DNA from: an uncultured Fluviicola sp. | Lineage (GTDB): Bacteria > Bacteroidota > Bacteroidia > Flavobacteriales_D > Crocinitomicaceae | DNA: 64,000 nucleotides | NCBI RefSeq assembly: GCF_902168135.1 | Contig: NZ_CABHOL010000018.1 | Span: 53,128 to 117,127, forward strand | Reading direction: 5' to 3' | In this document: in pieces, positions 9,274 to 27,036 of the stretch | Layout: each line of letters begins with the position of its first letter | Position numbering within the stretch: position 1 is the stretch's first letter | Position numbers and translations under genes: made by a program | Notes under the pieces: generated by a model | What the model saw: only the letters and a program-made list of their open reading frames with translations | Told to the model about the DNA's origin: nothing | Databases searched by the model: none

Positions 9274-9861
9274 CTACTTCGTCCTTCCATCCAAAACATC
9301 CAACACCTCTCTAAAATCAACCTGCCTCGCGCGCAAAAGGACTAAATAATGAAACAACAAATCAGCAGCTTCTTCTTTGAAAAGCTGTGGTTCATTTCGC
9401 ATAGCTTCTATAACGATTTCTACTCCCTCCTCCCCGACTTTCTGCGCAATTTTAGGCAATCCCTTTTCAATCAGCGACTGAATATACGATCCTTCTTTGG
9501 GAGTCGTAAATCTCTCATCAATGGTGTCGATCAATTTGCGGAGTGTATCGAATGAACGTGATTCTGCTTCGCCGAAACAGGAGATTTTGCCAGTGTGACA
9601 AGTCGGACCTTTTGCCTTGGCCTTTATGAGTAAAGTATCTTCATCACAATCCAAAGACCAGTCGACCAATTCCAGGTAATTGCCTGAAGTTGCTCCCTTG
9701 ACCCACAATTCATTCCTGGAGCGTGAAAAGAAGGTAACTAATCGGGTTTCCAAAGTCTGCTGAAAAGAAACTTCGTTCATATACCCCAGCATCAGCACCT
9801 GGTTGGTTTGTGCATCCTGTATAATTGCCGGAATCAATCCGTTTTTGTCGTATTTCATCAT
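9274..9861 (-). CDS. hisIE: Phosphoribosyl-AMP cyclohydrolase / phosphoribosyl-ATP pyrophosphatase (HisIE)
   Basis: This bifunctional 195-residue enzyme catalyses histidine steps 2 and 3: the C-terminal domain removes pyrophosphate from PR-ATP and the N-terminal domain opens the adenine ring of PR-AMP. The N-terminal cyclohydrolase half (about 1-100) shows SLDCDEDTLLIKAKAKGPTC with the metal-binding Asp and Cys residues and HTG just after. The C-terminal helical pyrophosphatase half (about 108-190) has GEEGVEIVIEA. It is the last gene of the his operon, five bases after hisF. The start could be either of two consecutive ATG codons. Confidence 0.95.
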   Translation of the reverse strand: MMKYDKNGLIPAIIQDAQTNQVLMLGYMNEVSFQQTLETRLVTFFSRSRNELWVKGATSGNYLELVDWSLDCDEDTLLIKAKAKGPTCHTGKISCFGEAESRSFDTLRKLIDTIDERFTTPKEGSYIQSLIEKGLPKIAQKVGEEGVEIVIEAMRNEPQLFKEEAADLLFHYLVLLRARQVDFREVLDVLDGRTK

Positions 9862-9866
9862 TTGTT

Positions 9867-10622
9867 CTAATTTCTAATTCTAATTGTTTTACTCAGTTCG
9901 TTTTTCAATTCCGGAATAGCAATCTCTCCGAAATGAAAGATACTGGCGGCTAATCCGCCGGTAACGTTTGTTTGTGTGAACAGCTCTTCAAAATGAGCAA
10001 CTGTTCCTGCTCCGCCGGATGCAATTACAGGAATGCTAACAAGTTCCTGCAGTTTTTGATAAAAATCCAGTGCAAAACCGTCTTTGGTTCCGTCTCCATC
10101 CATAGAAGTAATGAGTAATTCCCCTGCTCCGAGTGAAACAACCTTCATAATCCATTCAAAAGCTTCTATTCCAGTGTCATTTTTCCCACCGTGTGTATGG
10201 ACGGTCCACCCGCTGTTGACTTTCCGGATATCAACTGCCGCCACAACACATTGTTTGCCGAACTGATCTGCCAGTTCTGTGATTAGTTCGGGACGTTTAA
10301 CCGCCGATGAATTGACAGCTATTTTATCGGCTCCACTCCTCAGTAAGGTACGTGCGTTTTCAACGGAGGAAATCCCGCCTCCGACAGTAAATGGAATGTT
10401 TACCTGCTCCGCAACTGCTTTTACCACCGGGACAAAAGTTGATCTTTTCTCGTTCGTAGCCGAAATATCCAGCAAAACCAATTCGTCGGCACCCTGAGCA
10501 GCATAAAATCGGGCCAATTCAACCGGATCTCCGGCATCCCGAATTGCCTCAAAGTTCACACCTTTTACGGTTCTTCCGTTTTGAATGTCCAAACAGGGGA
10601 TGATTCGTTTATAAACCTGCAT
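9867..10622 (-). CDS. hisF: Imidazole glycerol phosphate synthase, cyclase subunit
   Basis: HisF is the cyclase half of IGP synthase. It is a TIM barrel that joins PRFAR with ammonia delivered from HisH to make imidazole glycerol phosphate and AICAR. The 251-residue length is standard. The catalytic aspartates are visible as [12 protein letters not shown] (Asp12) and AAVDIRKV (Asp131). Phosphate-binding loops appear as FTVGGGI and VIASGGAG. Its start overlaps the hisA end by 14 bases, indicating coupled translation, and hisH lies upstream in the same operon. Confidence 0.96.
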
Positions 10623-11337
10623 CGTTGAATTGTTTTAGTTCACTTAGTGTTATTTTTCCGTCCAGCAGTGCTTTCCCAATAACACATGCATAACAGCCTG
10701 CTTTCCGGAGTTCTTCCAAATCGGATAACGATTCTACTCCACCGCTTGCAATCCAAAGCTGATCCGGAAATTGGTAAACGAGTCTTTCGTACAAGGCTAC
10801 ATTCGGACCGGATCCTGTGCCGTCTTTTTGAATATCCGTTGTTAAAATGGTTAATCCTTTGAATGAACTGAAATAACGCATAATCTCTTCCAGTGTTTTA
10901 CCCGAATCATCCTGCCATCCGTTGATTTTTAGCTTATTTCCATCCGTGTCCAGCGCTAGGATAAATCGTTCCGAACCGAATGTTTTTATCCAGTCGACCA
11001 CTTTTTCCGGTTCATTCACACACAAACTTCCGATTACGACCTGGTTGGCACCGGAATTCAACAGTCTGTCAACATCTTCAGCAGTTTTTATTCCTCCTCC
11101 AAAATCTACTTTTAATCCTGTTTGAGAGACAATTTCCCGCATCAATTCTTGATGAATTAACCTGCCCGCTTTAGCACCTGACAAATCTACCAGGTGCAGA
11201 TGCTTCAAACCATGAGATGCAATCTCGGAAGCATACGCAGCGGCATTCCGCGGATAAATTGTTTGTTGTCCGTAATCTCCCCGGAATAAGCGGACAACTT
11301 CATTGTTTATTAAATCAATTGCGGGTATTGCTATCAT
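10609..11337 (-). CDS. hisA: ProFAR isomerase (HisA)
   Basis: HisA is a TIM barrel that isomerises ProFAR to PRFAR in histidine synthesis. The 242-residue protein has [19 protein letters not shown] with Asp8 and LALDTDGNK with Asp130, the two catalytic acids of the family, plus phosphate-binding VDFGGGI and WIASGGV. It overlaps hisH by four bases (ATGA) and hisF by fourteen. It is the usual paralogue of hisF and shares its half-barrel repeats. Confidence 0.95.
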
Positions 11338-11972
11338 GTGTTTAAAAATTGAGTTAGTAATTTTTCTCCGGCTCTACCACTCTTTTCAGGGTGAAACTGG
11401 ACTCCGAAGAAATTGTCTTTTTTGAGTGCTGCGGAAAACGGAGCCGGATAATTGGCGACACCCCAGGTATTTTCGCAAATCTCAGCTGCATAACTGTGAA
11501 CGAAATAAAACACCTCAGATCTTCCGTTTAATACGACATCGTTCCAACCGATATGAGGGATGGGGTATTTTGCACGTAAGTCAGGTGCTATTTCTGCAAC
11601 ACCATCGGTTTGCCATTTGGCAAACTGGCAAATTTGCGGAGTTGCTAATTGTGATTTCAGGGATCGGACCGAAGCCTGGAAAATCTCCAAACCATAAAGG
11701 TTTCCTTCTTCATTCCAACCACACATCAACTGCATTCCCAGGCAGATTCCCAATACAGGCTGCTCCAAAGTCGGGATAACCAGATCGAGTCCTTTTTCAC
11801 GTAATTGCTCCATGGCACTTCTGGCATGACCTACTCCCGGAAAAATTACGTGTGTTGCAGACCTGATTTCCTTTTCATTGTCCGTTAAAACAATGTCATA
11901 ACCCAATCTTTTAAAGGCCTGCCGGATTGAAAACAAGTTTCCTGCCCCATAATCAATAACTGCTATTTTCAT
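11334..11972 (-). CDS. hisH: Imidazole glycerol phosphate synthase, glutaminase subunit
   Basis: HisH is the class I glutamine amidotransferase that hydrolyses glutamine and channels ammonia to HisF. The 212-residue protein opens with IAVIDYGAGNLFSI, carries the nucleophile elbow GICLGMQLM (Cys78) and ends with the FHPEKSG block (His194, Glu196), completing the triad. It overlaps hisB by one base upstream and hisA by four bases downstream, consistent with translational coupling of the operon. Confidence 0.95.
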   Translation of the reverse strand: MKIAVIDYGAGNLFSIRQAFKRLGYDIVLTDNEKEIRSATHVIFPGVGHARSAMEQLREKGLDLVIPTLEQPVLGICLGMQLMCGWNEEGNLYGLEIFQASVRSLKSQLATPQICQFAKWQTDGVAEIAPDLRAKYPIPHIGWNDVVLNGRSEVFYFVHSYAAEICENTWGVANYPAPFSAALKKDNFFGVQFHPEKSGRAGEKLLTQFLNT

Positions 11973-13108
11973 CAGAGCTCATTTTTAGTTGTCGGCAGAA
12001 GATCGAAATTTCCATTTCTGCGTTTGGCCATCAAAATGGCTTTTGCAAATGCTTTAAAGACAGCTTCGATCTTGTGGTGTTCGTTTTCACCCTTTGCTTG
12101 AATATAAAGGTTACAACGCGCTGTAAAACAGAATGATTTAAAAAAGTGCTGAACCATTTCCGTTGGGAGCTTTCCCACAAATTCGCGCTTCAGTTCTACT
12201 TCCCAAATCAATTCCGGCCGGCCTCCAAAATCGATCGCGCAAGTTGCAACACAGTCATCCATGGGCAGACAGAATCCGTAACGTTCAATACCGCGCTTGG
12301 AACCCAGTCCCTGATCAATTGCAAGACCAAGAGTCAAAGCAGTATCTTCTATGGTGTGGTGTTCATCGATTTGCAAATCACCATCAATATTCAATTCGAT
12401 GTCCATTTGTCCATGCCGTGCAAGCTGTTCCAGCATGTGATCGAAAAAGGCAATCCCGGTTTGAATTCTTGAAATTCCCGCGCCGTCCAAATCAAGACTT
12501 ATAAGACAATCTGTTTCTGAGGTGGTTCTGCGTACACTTACCTTACGAGTGCCTAAACGCAAATCAGCAACCAAATCGGACCAGTTTGCAACTCTCCGTT
12601 GAATGACCATTTCCAGTTCCTCTTTTGAATACTGCAATTCCGAACCGCATTCAATTACATGCGTTTCCAGTAAAAAGACTTTGCAGCCAAGATTTCTGGC
12701 TAGTTCAACATCTGTCCAGCGGTCACCTATAACAACCGAGTTTTCCAGATCGTACGATTCGGAAAAATACTTGCTCAACATTCCTGTACGCGGTTTTCTA
12801 TTCGGAGATTGTTCTTCCGGAAAAGAGCGGTCGATAAGTACTTCCGAAAAAACAATTCCTTCGCTTTCCAGGATATCAAGCATGAGTTGATGCGGGCCTT
12901 CAAAATCTTCAAAGGGAAAACTTTCCGTCCCCAATCCATCCTGGTTTGATACCAAAACGAGTTCGTACTCATTCCAGGAAACAATGGTTTTCAGGGTTGA
13001 GATCACCCCTTTCAAAAATTGAAGTTTCGAATAGGAATCAACCTGGTAGCCGATCGGTTCTTTGATGATTGTACCATCGCGGTCAATAAATAGCACTTTT
13101 TGTTTCAT
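11972..13108 (-). CDS. hisB: Bifunctional histidinol-phosphatase / IGP dehydratase (HisB)
   Basis: This 378-residue fusion carries a HAD-type histidinol-phosphate phosphatase at the N-terminus and imidazole glycerol phosphate dehydratase at the C-terminus, as in E. coli. The HAD half (about 1-165) opens with VLFIDRDGTI (Asp9 and Asp11) and has VIGDRWTDVELA. The dehydratase half (about 185-378) shows the manganese-binding DHMLEQLARHGQ, DEHHTIEDTALTLG and ENEHHKIEA. The start overlaps hisDC by four bases (ATGA) and the end overlaps hisH by one. Having both activities here means the operon needs no separate histidinol phosphatase. Confidence 0.95.
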   Translation of the reverse strand: MKQKVLFIDRDGTIIKEPIGYQVDSYSKLQFLKGVISTLKTIVSWNEYELVLVSNQDGLGTESFPFEDFEGPHQLMLDILESEGIVFSEVLIDRSFPEEQSPNRKPRTGMLSKYFSESYDLENSVVIGDRWTDVELARNLGCKVFLLETHVIECGSELQYSKEELEMVIQRRVANWSDLVADLRLGTRKVSVRRTTSETDCLISLDLDGAGISRIQTGIAFFDHMLEQLARHGQMDIELNIDGDLQIDEHHTIEDTALTLGLAIDQGLGSKRGIERYGFCLPMDDCVATCAIDFGGRPELIWEVELKREFVGKLPTEMVQHFFKSFCFTARCNLYIQAKGENEHHKIEAVFKAFAKAILMAKRRNGNFDLLPTTKNEL

Positions 13109-15462
13109 AATGTCTCCATAATTTGAATAAATCGATTATTTGCTTCAGGTGTTCCAACGCTTACCCGCAAAGTATCCGAACAATTGAATTGCCCGCTTCT
13201 GTCGCGAACCACTATTCCATTCTCAAGCAGTATTTCATAAATAGCGGAAGCATTCGGAATCCGGAAAAGAATGAAATTGGTTTCTGACGGAAAAACGGTT
13301 GTGACCGAAGGCAGCGATTTCAGAAAAACAGTCAGGCGTTCCCGTTCCCGGATAATCTCAGCATTCAGTTCATTCCATTGAATCTCTTTTAGAGCTTTTA
13401 CAGCTGTTTCCTGGACGACAGAACTCAAATTATAGGGCGGTTTTATCCGGTCTAAAGCAGTGACCCAAGCTTTCGGAGCAATTGCCATACCGATGCGCAG
13501 GCCGGCCATTCCATACCCTTTTGAAAGTGTTTGGATAACGATCAAATTTGAATAATTGATCACTTCATCGGATGCTGAAGAGCCCACCGGACAAAAATCA
13601 ATGTAAGCCTCGTCAATAATGACCAATCCGTTGAATGCTTTTACAATTTCAAGCAATTCTGTTTTCGGAATGCGATTTCCCGTTGGGTTATTCGGATTGC
13701 AGAGCACCAATAGTTTAGCTTCTTCTGCCTGAAGTAAAATTTCCGATACTGAAATCTGAAATTGGCTATCCAGGTTGATTTCCAAGGGTTTTAAACCATT
13801 TATTCGGGCGAGCACCGCATACATTCCGTAAGAAGGATTCAAAAAAGCAACGGAATCCAAAAATGGAGTTCCGGTCAAACGAAAAATCAAATCCAGCACT
13901 TCGTCAGATCCGTTCCCTAAGAATACATGCTCGGGATTAAATCCTTTAATCTCACTTATAACCTTTTTAAGTTCCTTTTGTTTCGGGTCCGGATAACGGT
14001 TGTAAGCTGTCTCAAACGCATGCTCATTGGCATCCAGGAAGATCTTTCCAGAACCGTCAAACTCATCCCTGGCCGAACTATAAGGCTGAACGTTCCTTAA
14101 ATCCGTGCGCAAAAAACGTGTTATATCTATCTCACTCTCAAGAATCGAAGCGATCGATAGACCTGCTTCCGGTTCACTCTCACTCTGTTTCAATTCCAGC
14201 CGTATCTTAACCGCATTCGCATGTCCCTGCAGTTCTTCTGCTTCTGCCATCGTGATGACCGTTTGCCCCAGGTTTTCAAGTCCCTCATCGCTGATTTTTT
14301 GATAAGTAATCTTTTTCACAAAAGAATCCAGGGAAACTCCGCTGTAAGCTTTTGCAAAACCGGAAGTCGGCAGGGTGTGATTCGTTCCTGACGCGTAATC
14401 TCCGAAACTCTCCGCCGTATTTTGCCCGATAAACACGCTTCCTGCATTGGTAACCTTTGCGACTATCTCATCTTCGTACCGTCCCATGACGATCAGGTGT
14501 TCAGGCGCGTATGAATTGATGATTTCCGGCCATTTCTCCACTCCTGTTACAATTGCCAGACTTGAATCCAAGGCCGTTTTCGCTATTTCTTTTCGTGGAA
14601 GAAGTTTCAACTGCCTGCTCACTTCTTCCAGAACCTTTTCGAGGAATCCTGCTTCCTCCGTTAGGAAAACAACTTGTGAATCCTGGCCGTGTTCTGCCTG
14701 TGCCAGCAAATCCGCTGCGATAAAAGAAGCCGGTACCGATGAATCTGCGGCAACAAGCACTTCCGAAGGCCCTGCAGGAAGGTCAATGGCTATCCCAAGG
14801 CTTTGAGCAAATACTTTTGCAGCTGTGACATATTGATTTCCGGGACCAAAGATTTTATCCGCTTTCGGAATGGTTTCTGTTCCGATACTCATGGCTGCAA
14901 TAGCTTGCGCCCCGCCCGCTTTGTAAACCAAATCAATTCCGGCCGTTTTAGCAGCAAACAGAATTGCAGGATGGATCTTTCCCTGCTTATTGGGAGGAGT
15001 ACACAAGAAACGAATCGGGTTACCGGCAATTTTAGCAGGAATTCCAAGCATCAGAACTGTTGAGAACAAAGGAGCTGTCCCGCCGGGAACATAAAGTCCG
15101 ACGGTTTGGACAGGTACGGATTTTCTCCAGCAAAAAACGCCGGGAGCTGTTTCCACTTCATGATCCCTGTTTTCCTGAGAACGGTGAAAACGCTCGATGT
15201 TTTTAGCGGCAACCCGTATTGCCTGTTTTAATTCCGGTGAAACCAGTTTCTCAGATTCTTCAAACTCTTTTTCATCAACCAGTAAACAATCCGGAGCAAC
15301 GCCGTCAAACTGAAGGGTAAAATTTCTCAATGCCCGGTCTCCGTTTTTTTCGATTTCCCGGAACACATCCGAAACGAAAGAATCCAGGTTGACAGAAATT
15401 TCTTTTTGGCGTTCAATAGCTTGCTGCAACTCAATGACGGATGGATTTATCAGTGTTCTCAT
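13105..15462 (-). CDS. hisDC: Histidinol dehydrogenase-histidinol-phosphate aminotransferase fusion (HisD-HisC)
   Basis: One uninterrupted frame encodes HisD (about residues 1-425) and HisC (about 447-785), joined by a linker rich in Glu and Ser. HisD oxidises histidinol to histidine with NAD and zinc; motifs include GPGNQYVTAAK, GPSEVLVAAD, LLAQAEHG and GHANAVKIRL. HisC is a class I PLP aminotransferase; motifs include DANEH, FLGNGSDEVLD, CNPNNPTGN, IIDEAYIDF and the PLP lysine in TLSKGYGMAGLRIG. In most genomes I know these are separate adjacent genes, with hisC starting near the NVQPYSSARDEF block. I chose the ATG at 15462 (MRTLINPS), two bases after hisG ends; an upstream ATG at 15492 would overlap hisG by 28 bases. 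No internal start with a ribosome site is evident. Confidence 0.93.
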   Translation of the reverse strand: MRTLINPSVIELQQAIERQKEISVNLDSFVSDVFREIEKNGDRALRNFTLQFDGVAPDCLLVDEKEFEESEKLVSPELKQAIRVAAKNIERFHRSQENRDHEVETAPGVFCWRKSVPVQTVGLYVPGGTAPLFSTVLMLGIPAKIAGNPIRFLCTPPNKQGKIHPAILFAAKTAGIDLVYKAGGAQAIAAMSIGTETIPKADKIFGPGNQYVTAAKVFAQSLGIAIDLPAGPSEVLVAADSSVPASFIAADLLAQAEHGQDSQVVFLTEEAGFLEKVLEEVSRQLKLLPRKEIAKTALDSSLAIVTGVEKWPEIINSYAPEHLIVMGRYEDEIVAKVTNAGSVFIGQNTAESFGDYASGTNHTLPTSGFAKAYSGVSLDSFVKKITYQKISDEGLENLGQTVITMAEAEELQGHANAVKIRLELKQSESEPEAGLSIASILESEIDITRFLRTDLRNVQPYSSARDEFDGSGKIFLDANEHAFETAYNRYPDPKQKELKKVISEIKGFNPEHVFLGNGSDEVLDLIFRLTGTPFLDSVAFLNPSYGMYAVLARINGLKPLEINLDSQFQISVSEILLQAEEAKLLVLCNPNNPTGNRIPKTELLEIVKAFNGLVIIDEAYIDFCPVGSSASDEVINYSNLIVIQTLSKGYGMAGLRIGMAIAPKAWVTALDRIKPPYNLSSVVQETAVKALKEIQWNELNAEIIRERERLTVFLKSLPSVTTVFPSETNFILFRIPNASAIYEILLENGIVVRDRSGQFNCSDTLRVSVGTPEANNRFIQIMETL

Positions 15463-15464
15463 AA

Positions 15465-16322
15465 TCAGGAAACCATTTTTTCGATGGGACAAACCAGGAT
15501 TCCTTCAGCACCTTCCGATTTAAGACGCTGTACGACCTGCCAAACTTCTTTTTGTTTCACTACCGAATGAACGCTGACCCACCCTTCAACAGCAAGCGGA
15601 AGGATCGTCGGACTTTTCATTCCCGGGAGGATTTCACAGATGGTCGATAGTTTTTCTTTAGGAGCATTCAGCAGAATGTATTTGTTTTCATTTCCTGCCA
15701 AAACGGATTGGATGCGGAAGAGCAGCTGATCCAGCAGGGCTTGCTTTTCAACATTGAAATCCGGTCCTTTGATCAAAACTGCTTCGGAATACAGGAAAGG
15801 AAAAACCTCCCGCAGGTTGTTTTGAAACAAGGTGTTCCCAGTGGAAACAATGTCCGCAATACTATCCGAAAGGTCCAGGGAAGGTGCAATTTCTACCGAT
15901 CCGGAAATGGTGTGTATTTCGGCTGTAATCCCATTCTTTTGCAAATATTTCCGGACAGAATTCGGATATGAAGTAGCAATCCGTTTTCCCTGAAGGTCTT
16001 CCAATGTTTGGATTTCGGAAGTCTTTGGAACAGCAAACGACAACCGGCATTTTGAAAAATTCAGTGCCTGAACGATTTCCACGGGAGTTTCATCTTCTTC
16101 CAGGAGATTGGAACCTACAATCCCCAGATCCACCACTCCGTCGGCAACATATTGCGGAATATCGCTGTTGCGAAGAAATAAAAGTTCTGCCGGGTAATCC
16201 GATGTGATGACTTTAAGCTGTCCGTCCCGGTAATCGATTTTCAGGCCGCATTCTTTGAGCAGTTCCAGGGAACCTTCCCGGAGCCGACCTGATTTTTGTA
16301 GAGCAATAATTAAACGTTTCAT
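15465..16322 (-). CDS. hisG: ATP phosphoribosyltransferase, long form
   Basis: HisG catalyses the first step of histidine synthesis, joining ATP to PRPP, and is normally feedback-inhibited by histidine. From the ATG at 16322 (MKRLIIALQKSGRL) the protein has 285 residues. This is the long form with a C-terminal regulatory domain (about 210-285), so it needs no HisZ. Typical blocks are VDLGIVGSNLLEE, KRIATSYPNSVRKYL and DIVSTGNTL. A longer frame from 16364 runs back towards the attenuator and is unlikely. It is the first structural gene after the leader peptide and attenuator; its start lies about 50 bases downstream of the terminator U-tract. Confidence 0.95.
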   Translation of the reverse strand: MKRLIIALQKSGRLREGSLELLKECGLKIDYRDGQLKVITSDYPAELLFLRNSDIPQYVADGVVDLGIVGSNLLEEDETPVEIVQALNFSKCRLSFAVPKTSEIQTLEDLQGKRIATSYPNSVRKYLQKNGITAEIHTISGSVEIAPSLDLSDSIADIVSTGNTLFQNNLREVFPFLYSEAVLIKGPDFNVEKQALLDQLLFRIQSVLAGNENKYILLNAPKEKLSTICEILPGMKSPTILPLAVEGWVSVHSVVKQKEVWQVVQRLKSEGAEGILVCPIEKMVS

Positions 16323-16370
16323 CTGTAAAATTAGAGCCTGACCTTCAAAAGAGTATTGAAACAAAATGAC

Positions 16371-16403
16371 AACAAAAAACCCGCTTGAAAGCCAAGCGGG
16401 TTA
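16371..16403 (-). terminator. his operon attenuator terminator
   Basis: On the minus strand, AACCCGCTTG (16402-16393) pairs perfectly with CAAGCGGGTT (16387-16378) around a five-base loop, followed by a U-tract (16379-16374). It lies between the His leader peptide and hisG. Its 5' arm can instead pair over nine bases with the segment at the leader stop codon (16445-16437), giving the antiterminator; see the leader peptide entry. Confidence 0.92.
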
Positions 16404-16445
16404 AAGAATTATAGATATACAATCATCTCACCATAGCGCTTAGCT
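16390..16445 (-). promoter_or_regulatory. Antiterminator pairing of the his attenuator
   Basis: RNA segment AGCUAAGCG (16445-16437, which contains the leader stop codon) is complementary over nine bases, with one G-U pair, to CGCUUGGCU (16398-16390), the 5' arm and loop of the terminator. A ribosome stalled on the His codons would leave the first segment free and favour this pairing. A ribosome reaching the stop codon would cover it and let the terminator form. No third hairpin is needed. Confidence 0.75.
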
Positions 16446-16484
16446 GTGCATGTGATGATGATGATGGAATTGTGTCATTTTCAT
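16440..16484 (-). CDS. hisL: Histidine operon leader peptide
   Basis: A 14-residue frame reads MKMTQFHHHHHMHS and stops. It has five consecutive His codons (CAT CAT CAT CAT CAC) and a sixth after one Met. It sits immediately ahead of a perfect terminator and hisG, the classic arrangement for ribosome-mediated attenuation: scarcity of charged tRNA-His stalls the ribosome and lets the his genes be read. A strong promoter box ends four bases before its ATG, so the transcript may start at or within the first codon; the second Met (16478) could then be the real start. The peptide itself is presumably short-lived and has no other function. Confidence 0.92.
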   Translation of the reverse strand: MKMTQFHHHHHMHS

Positions 16485-16488
16485 GGTA

Positions 16489-16520
16489 CAAATGTAGAGC
16501 AATTATTTTAATTGCAACAA
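16489..16520 (-). promoter_or_regulatory. his operon promoter
   Basis: On the minus strand TACATTTG (16496-16489) is an exact TAnnTTTG -7 box. Two TTG triplets precede it, at 18 bases (16517-16515) and 21 bases (16520-16518), bracketing the usual 19-base spacing. Predicted transcription starts at about 16485-16482, at the leader ATG. Confidence 0.75.
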
Positions 16521-16686
16521 AATCAGTAAAAAATGTTTAAAATCAGTTGGCCAGTTAGCCTGTTCCTCTCTGGTTGCAGAGCATATAACATTCTATAATG
16601 GAATTTAATACAGATCTAGATGTAATTCCGTATCAGCCGCGGCTGATTACGTCCGTGAATTAAGTGGAATTGCTTATCTTTAATTT

Positions 16687-26881: not shown

Positions 26882-26953
26882 CAGCCCATAGGAGAATCGA
26901 ACTCCTGTTTCCAGGATGAAAACCTGGCGTCCTAACCACTAGACGAATGGGCC
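26882..26953 (-). tRNA. tRNA-Glu (UUC), copy 2
   Basis: The minus strand reads GGCCCATTCGTCTAGTGG at the 5' end, with anticodon stem CCAGG/CCTGG around loop TTTTCAT, giving anticodon TTC for Glu. The T-arm contains GGTTCGATTC-like AGTTCGATTCT and the acceptor closes with ATGGGCT. No CCA is encoded. It is identical to copy 1, 11 bases upstream. Confidence 0.95.
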
Positions 26954-26964
26954 AACTAAGTTGG

Positions 26965-27036
26965 CAGCCCATAGGAGAATCGAACTCCTGTTTCCAGGAT
27001 GAAAACCTGGCGTCCTAACCACTAGACGAATGGGCC
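26965..27036 (-). tRNA. tRNA-Glu (UUC), copy 1
   Basis: Identical in all 72 bases to the tRNA-Glu at 26882-26953, with anticodon TTC in loop TTTTCAT. It is the first gene after a strong promoter and heads a likely tRNA-tRNA-rpsT transcript. Exact identity indicates recent duplication or ongoing gene conversion. Confidence 0.95.

Follow-up and report, generated by a model that had tools for sequence, protein, structure and literature searches.

A putative histidine attenuator ahead of hisG in a Fluviicola genome, with a pairing arm that probably hides the hisG start codon in many flavobacterial relatives

Four elements were located ahead of hisG in the window (the whole 64-kb stretch of Fluviicola DNA that was analysed): a leader frame rich in histidine codons, a protector hairpin (predicted), a putative antiterminator strand and a hairpin that resembles a terminator. 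Together they very likely constitute a ribosome-mediated attenuator, which, given ample charged histidyl-tRNA, would stop transcription short of the his operon. In many flavobacterial relatives the same RNA probably hides the hisG start codon as well, and there a single arm seems to be shared by a transcription terminator and a translational lock. The attenuator core would be ordinary; the extra layer is clearest in the relatives.

All elements were read on the minus strand. The leader frame (MKMTQFHHHHHMHS, 14 codons, and stop codon TAA) occupies 16440-16484, with its ATG at 16484 and the TAA at 16442-16440. It holds the five consecutive His codons described in the initial annotation (codons 7-11, 16466-16452) and a sixth at codon 13 (16448-16446), together designated H. 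A run of at least four His codons occurs once in the six frames of the window, namely in this leader; 100 first-order Markov copies of the window contained on average 0.08 such runs, and none of five. A promoter -7 box of the TAnnTTTG type (TACATTTG, 16489-16496) was read 4 nt upstream of the leader ATG. The putative antiterminator strand U (AGCTAAGCG, 16437-16445) spans the leader stop codon and is complementary to CGCTTGGCT at 16398-16390 (nine pairs, one of them U-G). The 5' arm of the terminator, T1 (AACCCGCTTG, 16393-16402), is followed by the loop GCTTT (16392-16388) and by T2 with its T tract (16371-16387), of which the 3' arm CAAGCGGGTT covers 16387-16378 and the T tract extends to about 16371; the stem AACCCGCTTG/CAAGCGGGTT is a perfect 10 bp (16402-16393/16387-16378). 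The first gene, hisG, lies at 15465-16322 (ATG at 16322, TIGR00070 above cut-off). Direct reading thus agreed with the initial annotation in the order of promoter, His frame, U, stem with T tract and hisG, in the nine-base segment able to pair with the 5' arm, in the perfect stem and in the coordinates.

Two elements were absent from that annotation. The His-codon region is predicted to pair with P (GGTGAGATGATTGTAT, 16432-16417), a segment 3' of the leader stop codon that carries GATGAT, complementary to His codons; this protector hairpin, H:P (16419-16473), would enclose U. A further arm, D (TGAAGGTCAGGC, 16336-16347), situated about 14-25 nt upstream of the hisG ATG, can pair with T1 and the loop at 16397-16386 (12 pairs, three of them G-U). 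Folding of the minus-strand leader RNA, which had been proposed as a check, gave -30.4 kcal/mol for 115 nt (z -2.97; 0 of 200 shuffles as good). Judged by complementarity, H:P, U:T1, T1:T2 and T1:D are possible, mutually exclusive pairings.

With ample histidyl-tRNA the ribosome would reach the leader stop codon and cover U, T1:T2 would form, and RNA polymerase would halt near 16371. Under histidine starvation the ribosome would stall at the first His codons, H:P would open, U would capture T1 and transcription would proceed. If no ribosome were present H:P would hold U, so that termination would be the default. A second step may follow in the relatives: where T1 is used in the terminator, D would close the hisG start and leaked transcripts would stay untranslated; where T1 is captured by U, D would take T1 over and the hisG start would be open. 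This takeover is a timing argument, D being made before the hisG start, with the loop as a foothold.

HisG was present in 12 of 14 Fluviicola genomes; the family had it in 68 of 150 genomes and the class in 136 of 296. A subset of all hits, 182 hisG loci, formed the main set, and a further set of 79 loci was taken from named genomes (79 of 80 were tested, L214 being too short; L039 had just 129 nt of upstream sequence). In each locus the short frame richest in His over eight codons was sought within 380 nt upstream of hisG, three or more His counting as a pass. Such a frame was found upstream of hisG in 171 of the 182 loci, against 10/182 on the reverse strand and 118/3640 base shuffles, and in 75 of the 79 named loci; the loci share kinship, so these counts are not independent events. 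The remaining 11 of the 182 had no His-rich frame within the 380 nt searched. Conservation of the leader His codons in relatives, a check set by the initial annotation, was therefore borne out, and the counts suggest that members of the class Bacteroidia that have hisG usually carry a histidine attenuator ahead of it.

Of 213 loci, 166 have TAnnTTTG, which we take to be the Bacteroidota-type promoter consensus, within 75 nt upstream of the His run; shuffles gave an expectation of 10.7. The distance from the G of the box to the leader ATG was 4-5 nt in all 12 Fluviicola loci, and we infer that the leader mRNA is nearly leaderless.

A terminator-like hairpin with a T tract was present in 156 of the 182 loci and in 69 of the 79 named loci; 26 of the 182 had none by the criteria used. 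Covariation of the stem was scored on an alignment of 101 of 112 reference loci (L013, L016, L038, L039, L042, L056, L165, L186, L194, L198 and L201 were omitted for an odd D or start). T1:T2 was paired in 99.5% of cells, with two-sided changes in 5 of 11 pairs. Free folding from T1 to hisG was done for 15 loci and gave T1:T2 as the dominant structure in 14 and T1:D in one (L048). Since T1:T2 wins at equilibrium, folding of this kind cannot reveal a switch, which would depend on ribosome position and timing. Leaders that are His-rich, end in HHSS or HHFHHSS and have no terminator were seen in L063, L111, L118, L119, L125, L135, L148, L151 and others; these distant members of the class may have another type of leader control.

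Pairing of T1 and loop with D was surveyed in 139 of the 182 loci, which were also those tested for U:T1 under a strict threshold (an energy of -8 kcal/mol or better, matched by no more than 1 of 100 shuffles). Skipped were the 26 loci with no terminator, 6 with the terminator more than 130 nt from hisG and 11 with less than 18 nt between the two. T1 and loop paired with D at this threshold in 73 loci. On the alignment of 101 loci T1:D was paired in 93.3% of cells, a percentage that is partly circular because part of the alignment was selected on this pairing; 8 of 11 pairs had two-sided changes, loop columns included. About ten Flavobacterium rows were misaligned at D and scored as unpaired. 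Slid controls reached at most 44.7% of cells and 6 two-sided pairs. Within Fluviicola alone 96.5% of cells were paired and 3 of 12 pairs had two-sided changes (slid versions, at most 56.3% and 2). When T1 and loop were tried against the D of other loci, the own D ranked first in 8 of 79 loci; for Fluviicola the figures were 2 of 12 and a mean rank of 3.5. The mean loss on swapping was 6.0 kcal/mol (1.8 in Fluviicola). The own D is seldom best because one word is common to most loci, and the swap is weak evidence for the specificity of T1:D.

Folding of the relatives also placed D in a pairing with the hisG start (D:S). This was tested in a D set of 79 loci chosen with a less strict limit (no more than 3 of 100 shuffles as good), to which L004 and L013 had been added by hand. 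Outside Fluviicola, 44 of 67 loci had D:S pairings matched by at most 2 of 200 shuffles, compared with 2 of 67 when the partner offered to D was a control segment of hisG, about 40-67 nt into the gene. The corresponding numbers in Fluviicola were 2 of 12 (L008 and L009) and 0 of 12. In the window 165 of 200 shuffles were as good, and the pairing is absent. Both T1:D and D:S were found in 38 of 79 named loci. On the alignment, for which D:S was not a selection criterion, 88.0% of cells were paired (slid versions, at most 40.7%), and two-sided changes affected 34 cells, a number reached by 0 of 500 shuffles. The count of D:S pairs with two-sided changes, 5 of 9, is in itself no evidence, since 34 of 500 shuffles reach it too and slid versions give 4 to 6. 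Shared ancestry and the conserved N-terminus of HisG can be the source of part of the agreement.

Synonymous sites in the hisG start were compared in 50 of 62 distinct loci, those with a readable motif. Where Leu codon 4 starts with C, D has G in 22 of 25; where it starts with T, D has A in 14 of 24 and G in 7 of 24. Changes at these synonymous sites favour the pairing. In Flavobacterium the loop GTACA, D (TTGTACTC) and the hisG start (ATGAGTAC) change together, as do the loop GAGCAA, D (TTCGCTC) and the start (ATGAGCAAA) in L093. Counter-cases were L061 and L069, whose loop GTACA is unfit for their own D, and L163, whose start is unfit for D; the Winogradskyella loci L195 and L197 keep the loop:D pairing without D:S.

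T2 was then made unavailable, and the mean probability that bases around the start codon are unpaired was compared. Among 99 loci that combine a TGAG start with either D or a TGAG-type terminator loop, this mean went from 0.43 to 0.60; it rose by more than 0.1 in 74 of them and fell in 1. Among 19 such loci whose starts differ it went from 0.50 to 0.63, with 10 rising and none falling. The 54 loci that lack D showed no shift (4 rose, 4 fell), and neither did the 12 Fluviicola loci including the window (none rose, 1 fell). As pairing potential, a start hidden by an arm that could pair with the terminator arm instead was thus found in flavobacterial relatives. In the window T1:D is present, D:S is absent and accessibility is unchanged, so the second lock is not claimed for this genome.

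These results bear on two readings of D. We put about even weight on the one in which the flavobacterial T1 arm and loop are a decoy of the hisG start, D choosing between decoy and real start. One switch sensed by the ribosome would then both stop transcription and lock leaked transcripts, and Fluviicola would be a lineage in which the lock has been partly lost. Because loop, D and hisG start codons change together, the attenuator would in this decoy reading shape the coding start of hisG. The other reading takes D by itself, its pairing with T1 or with the hisG start being a stabilising or translation-blocking hairpin and no switch. It is a serious possibility, short of an even chance: it fits the free folds, where T1:D is minor, and the state of Fluviicola, where T1:D is kept though D:S is absent in most loci and accessibility does not respond. 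Against it, the same D bases in the relatives fit both partners, each with two-sided changes, and accessibility responds in the greater part of the 99 loci with a TGAG start.

On the other side of the terminator, no more than 5 of 100 shuffles matched U:T1 in 175 of the 213 loci, and the strict threshold was passed in 75 of the 139 tested. The placement of U is general: among the 175 it overlapped the stop codon in 89, was wholly coding in 84 and lay downstream in 2. A ribosome completing the frame would therefore cover U, since 173 of the 175 loci have it at the leader stop or earlier. That the stop codon lies inside the antiterminator strand, as the initial annotation proposed, holds for the window and for those 89 loci. 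U:T1 was paired in 95.4% of cells within Fluviicola, where no pair had a two-sided change; the helix varies too little there to show covariation. Folding predicted H:P in every one of the 12 Fluviicola loci (-13.7 to -17.9 kcal/mol). Tested as a duplex, it passed the limit of 5 in 100 shuffles in 9 of these 12 and in 88 of 213 loci overall, where about 10.7 were expected.

The initial annotation had described a compact attenuator of two structures, U:T1 against T1:T2, with no protector, whose untranslated leader would read through by default. U:T1 is indeed more widely supported than H:P at the same threshold. The prediction of H:P throughout Fluviicola, the duplexes that pass there and the large excess over expectation in the whole set nevertheless make this form unlikely, and a conserved arm D that pairs with T1 and the loop is a further departure from two structures. 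The attenuator with a protector hairpin is preferred. Its parts as found are the His leader, a terminator (by sequence and covariation), an excluding antiterminator (by pairing and position) and a predicted protector hairpin. Ribosome-mediated histidine attenuation in a member of the Bacteroidota, the broader proposal, is thus well supported by the conserved His leader, the covariation of T1:T2 and the position of U at the stop codon; its two-structure form is not supported.

Very improbable is a DNA operator, in which the word repeated in U, T2 and D, with its complement in T1, would bind a regulator and the RNA pairings would be a by-product of inverted repeats; D and T1 are also an inverted repeat in DNA, yet the word changes while complementarity stays (two-sided changes), the terminator loop changes too, and the set is linked to the His frame. 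A T-box or other aptamer-type leader that senses histidine, beside an accidental His-rich frame, is scarcely credible: Firmicutes and Actinobacteria do have T-boxes ahead of histidine genes (PMC9413887, as far as its available text goes), but none was among ten weak Rfam matches in 16280-16620, two tRNAs were the only matches at gathering score in the window, and the His frame is conserved. No leader family was found by Rfam at gathering score in the whole window or at relaxed E in 16280-16620, where a weak match to Trp_leader scored 15 bits against 41 needed.

The remainder of the his operon (9274-15492, minus strand) comprises hisD-hisC in one frame, a bifunctional hisB, hisH, hisA, hisF and hisIE. 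Gene models of the operon were above cut-off except hisA, for which TIGR00007 scored 221.9 bits, slightly under 228.95. The hisD-hisC frame is a single one of 795 aa (13105-15492, minus strand), with TIGR00069 at residues 40-431 and TIGR01141 at 462-793. Of the 69 loci whose sequence extends to the junction, 9 read through it in frame with no stop (Fluviicola L001, L003-L007, L010 and L011, and in addition L229). No such fusion appears in the available text of PMC8305728. In L008 and L009 hisD and hisC are separate, and within Fluviicola strong D:S pairing coincides with this separation; D:S is absent in the window, L002-L007 and L010, and intermediate in L011 and L012 (12 and 25 of 200 shuffles). 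Elsewhere in the genome of the window (G000), PF04715 (anthranilate synthase I, N-terminal) had no match, while 14 of 14 control genomes matched; the usual route to tryptophan may not be the one used here. PF00682 had one match in this genome. Two tandem tRNA genes with identical scores lie at 26882-27036 (minus strand) of the window.

Leader-peptide attenuation is textbook knowledge for Proteobacteria, and a comparative study of 2004 reportedly listed attenuators in Bacteroidetes/Chlorobi. The enterobacterial his attenuator, hisL, has a run of His codons in the leader, a protector, an antiterminator and a terminator, with hisG as first gene. The window likewise has a His run, a predicted protector, an antiterminator, a terminator and hisG first in the operon. 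It differs from hisL in a shorter leader, a TAnnTTTG-type promoter almost at the ATG, a U placed over the stop codon, the extra arm D and the lack of an Rfam leader match. For Bacteroidota, the available texts hold only hints of leader-peptide attenuation (PMC9723704; PMC7366714). Strong clues for it were described before amino-acid operons of Flavobacterium psychrophilum, together with a structured 5' element of hisG that is conserved in Flavobacteriaceae and has no Rfam hit (PMC9723704, available text). This is very probably the same element in relatives; His codons, the D arm and start-codon pairing are not named in that text. Leader-like frames were described in Bacteroides thetaiotaomicron (PMC7366714), and in the available text of a work on the his genes of this superphylum attenuation appears once, as background (PMC8305728).

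Precedents for a terminator coupled to a hidden ribosome-binding site are vmlR (PMC9226507) and tlrB (PMC6851288) of Bacillus subtilis, both in so far as the available texts describe them. The vmlR leader senses antibiotics and hides the Shine-Dalgarno sequence, whereas in the flavobacterial relatives the terminator arm and loop would mimic the start codon. The tlrB/yxjB leader resembles the arrangement in the relatives in having a terminator and a hairpin that keeps readthrough transcripts untranslated; it differs in that no overlapping antiterminator is identified in the available text and the signal is tylosin-dependent stalling. No description of the decoy-loop lock was found in searches of the open-licence literature on the subject. 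On present evidence the histidine attenuator would be a further case of a known mechanism and the decoy-loop lock a new variation. If the second lock is real, it would be an amino-acid attenuator in which one RNA arm governs both transcription and translation, with a terminator loop that copies the start codon.
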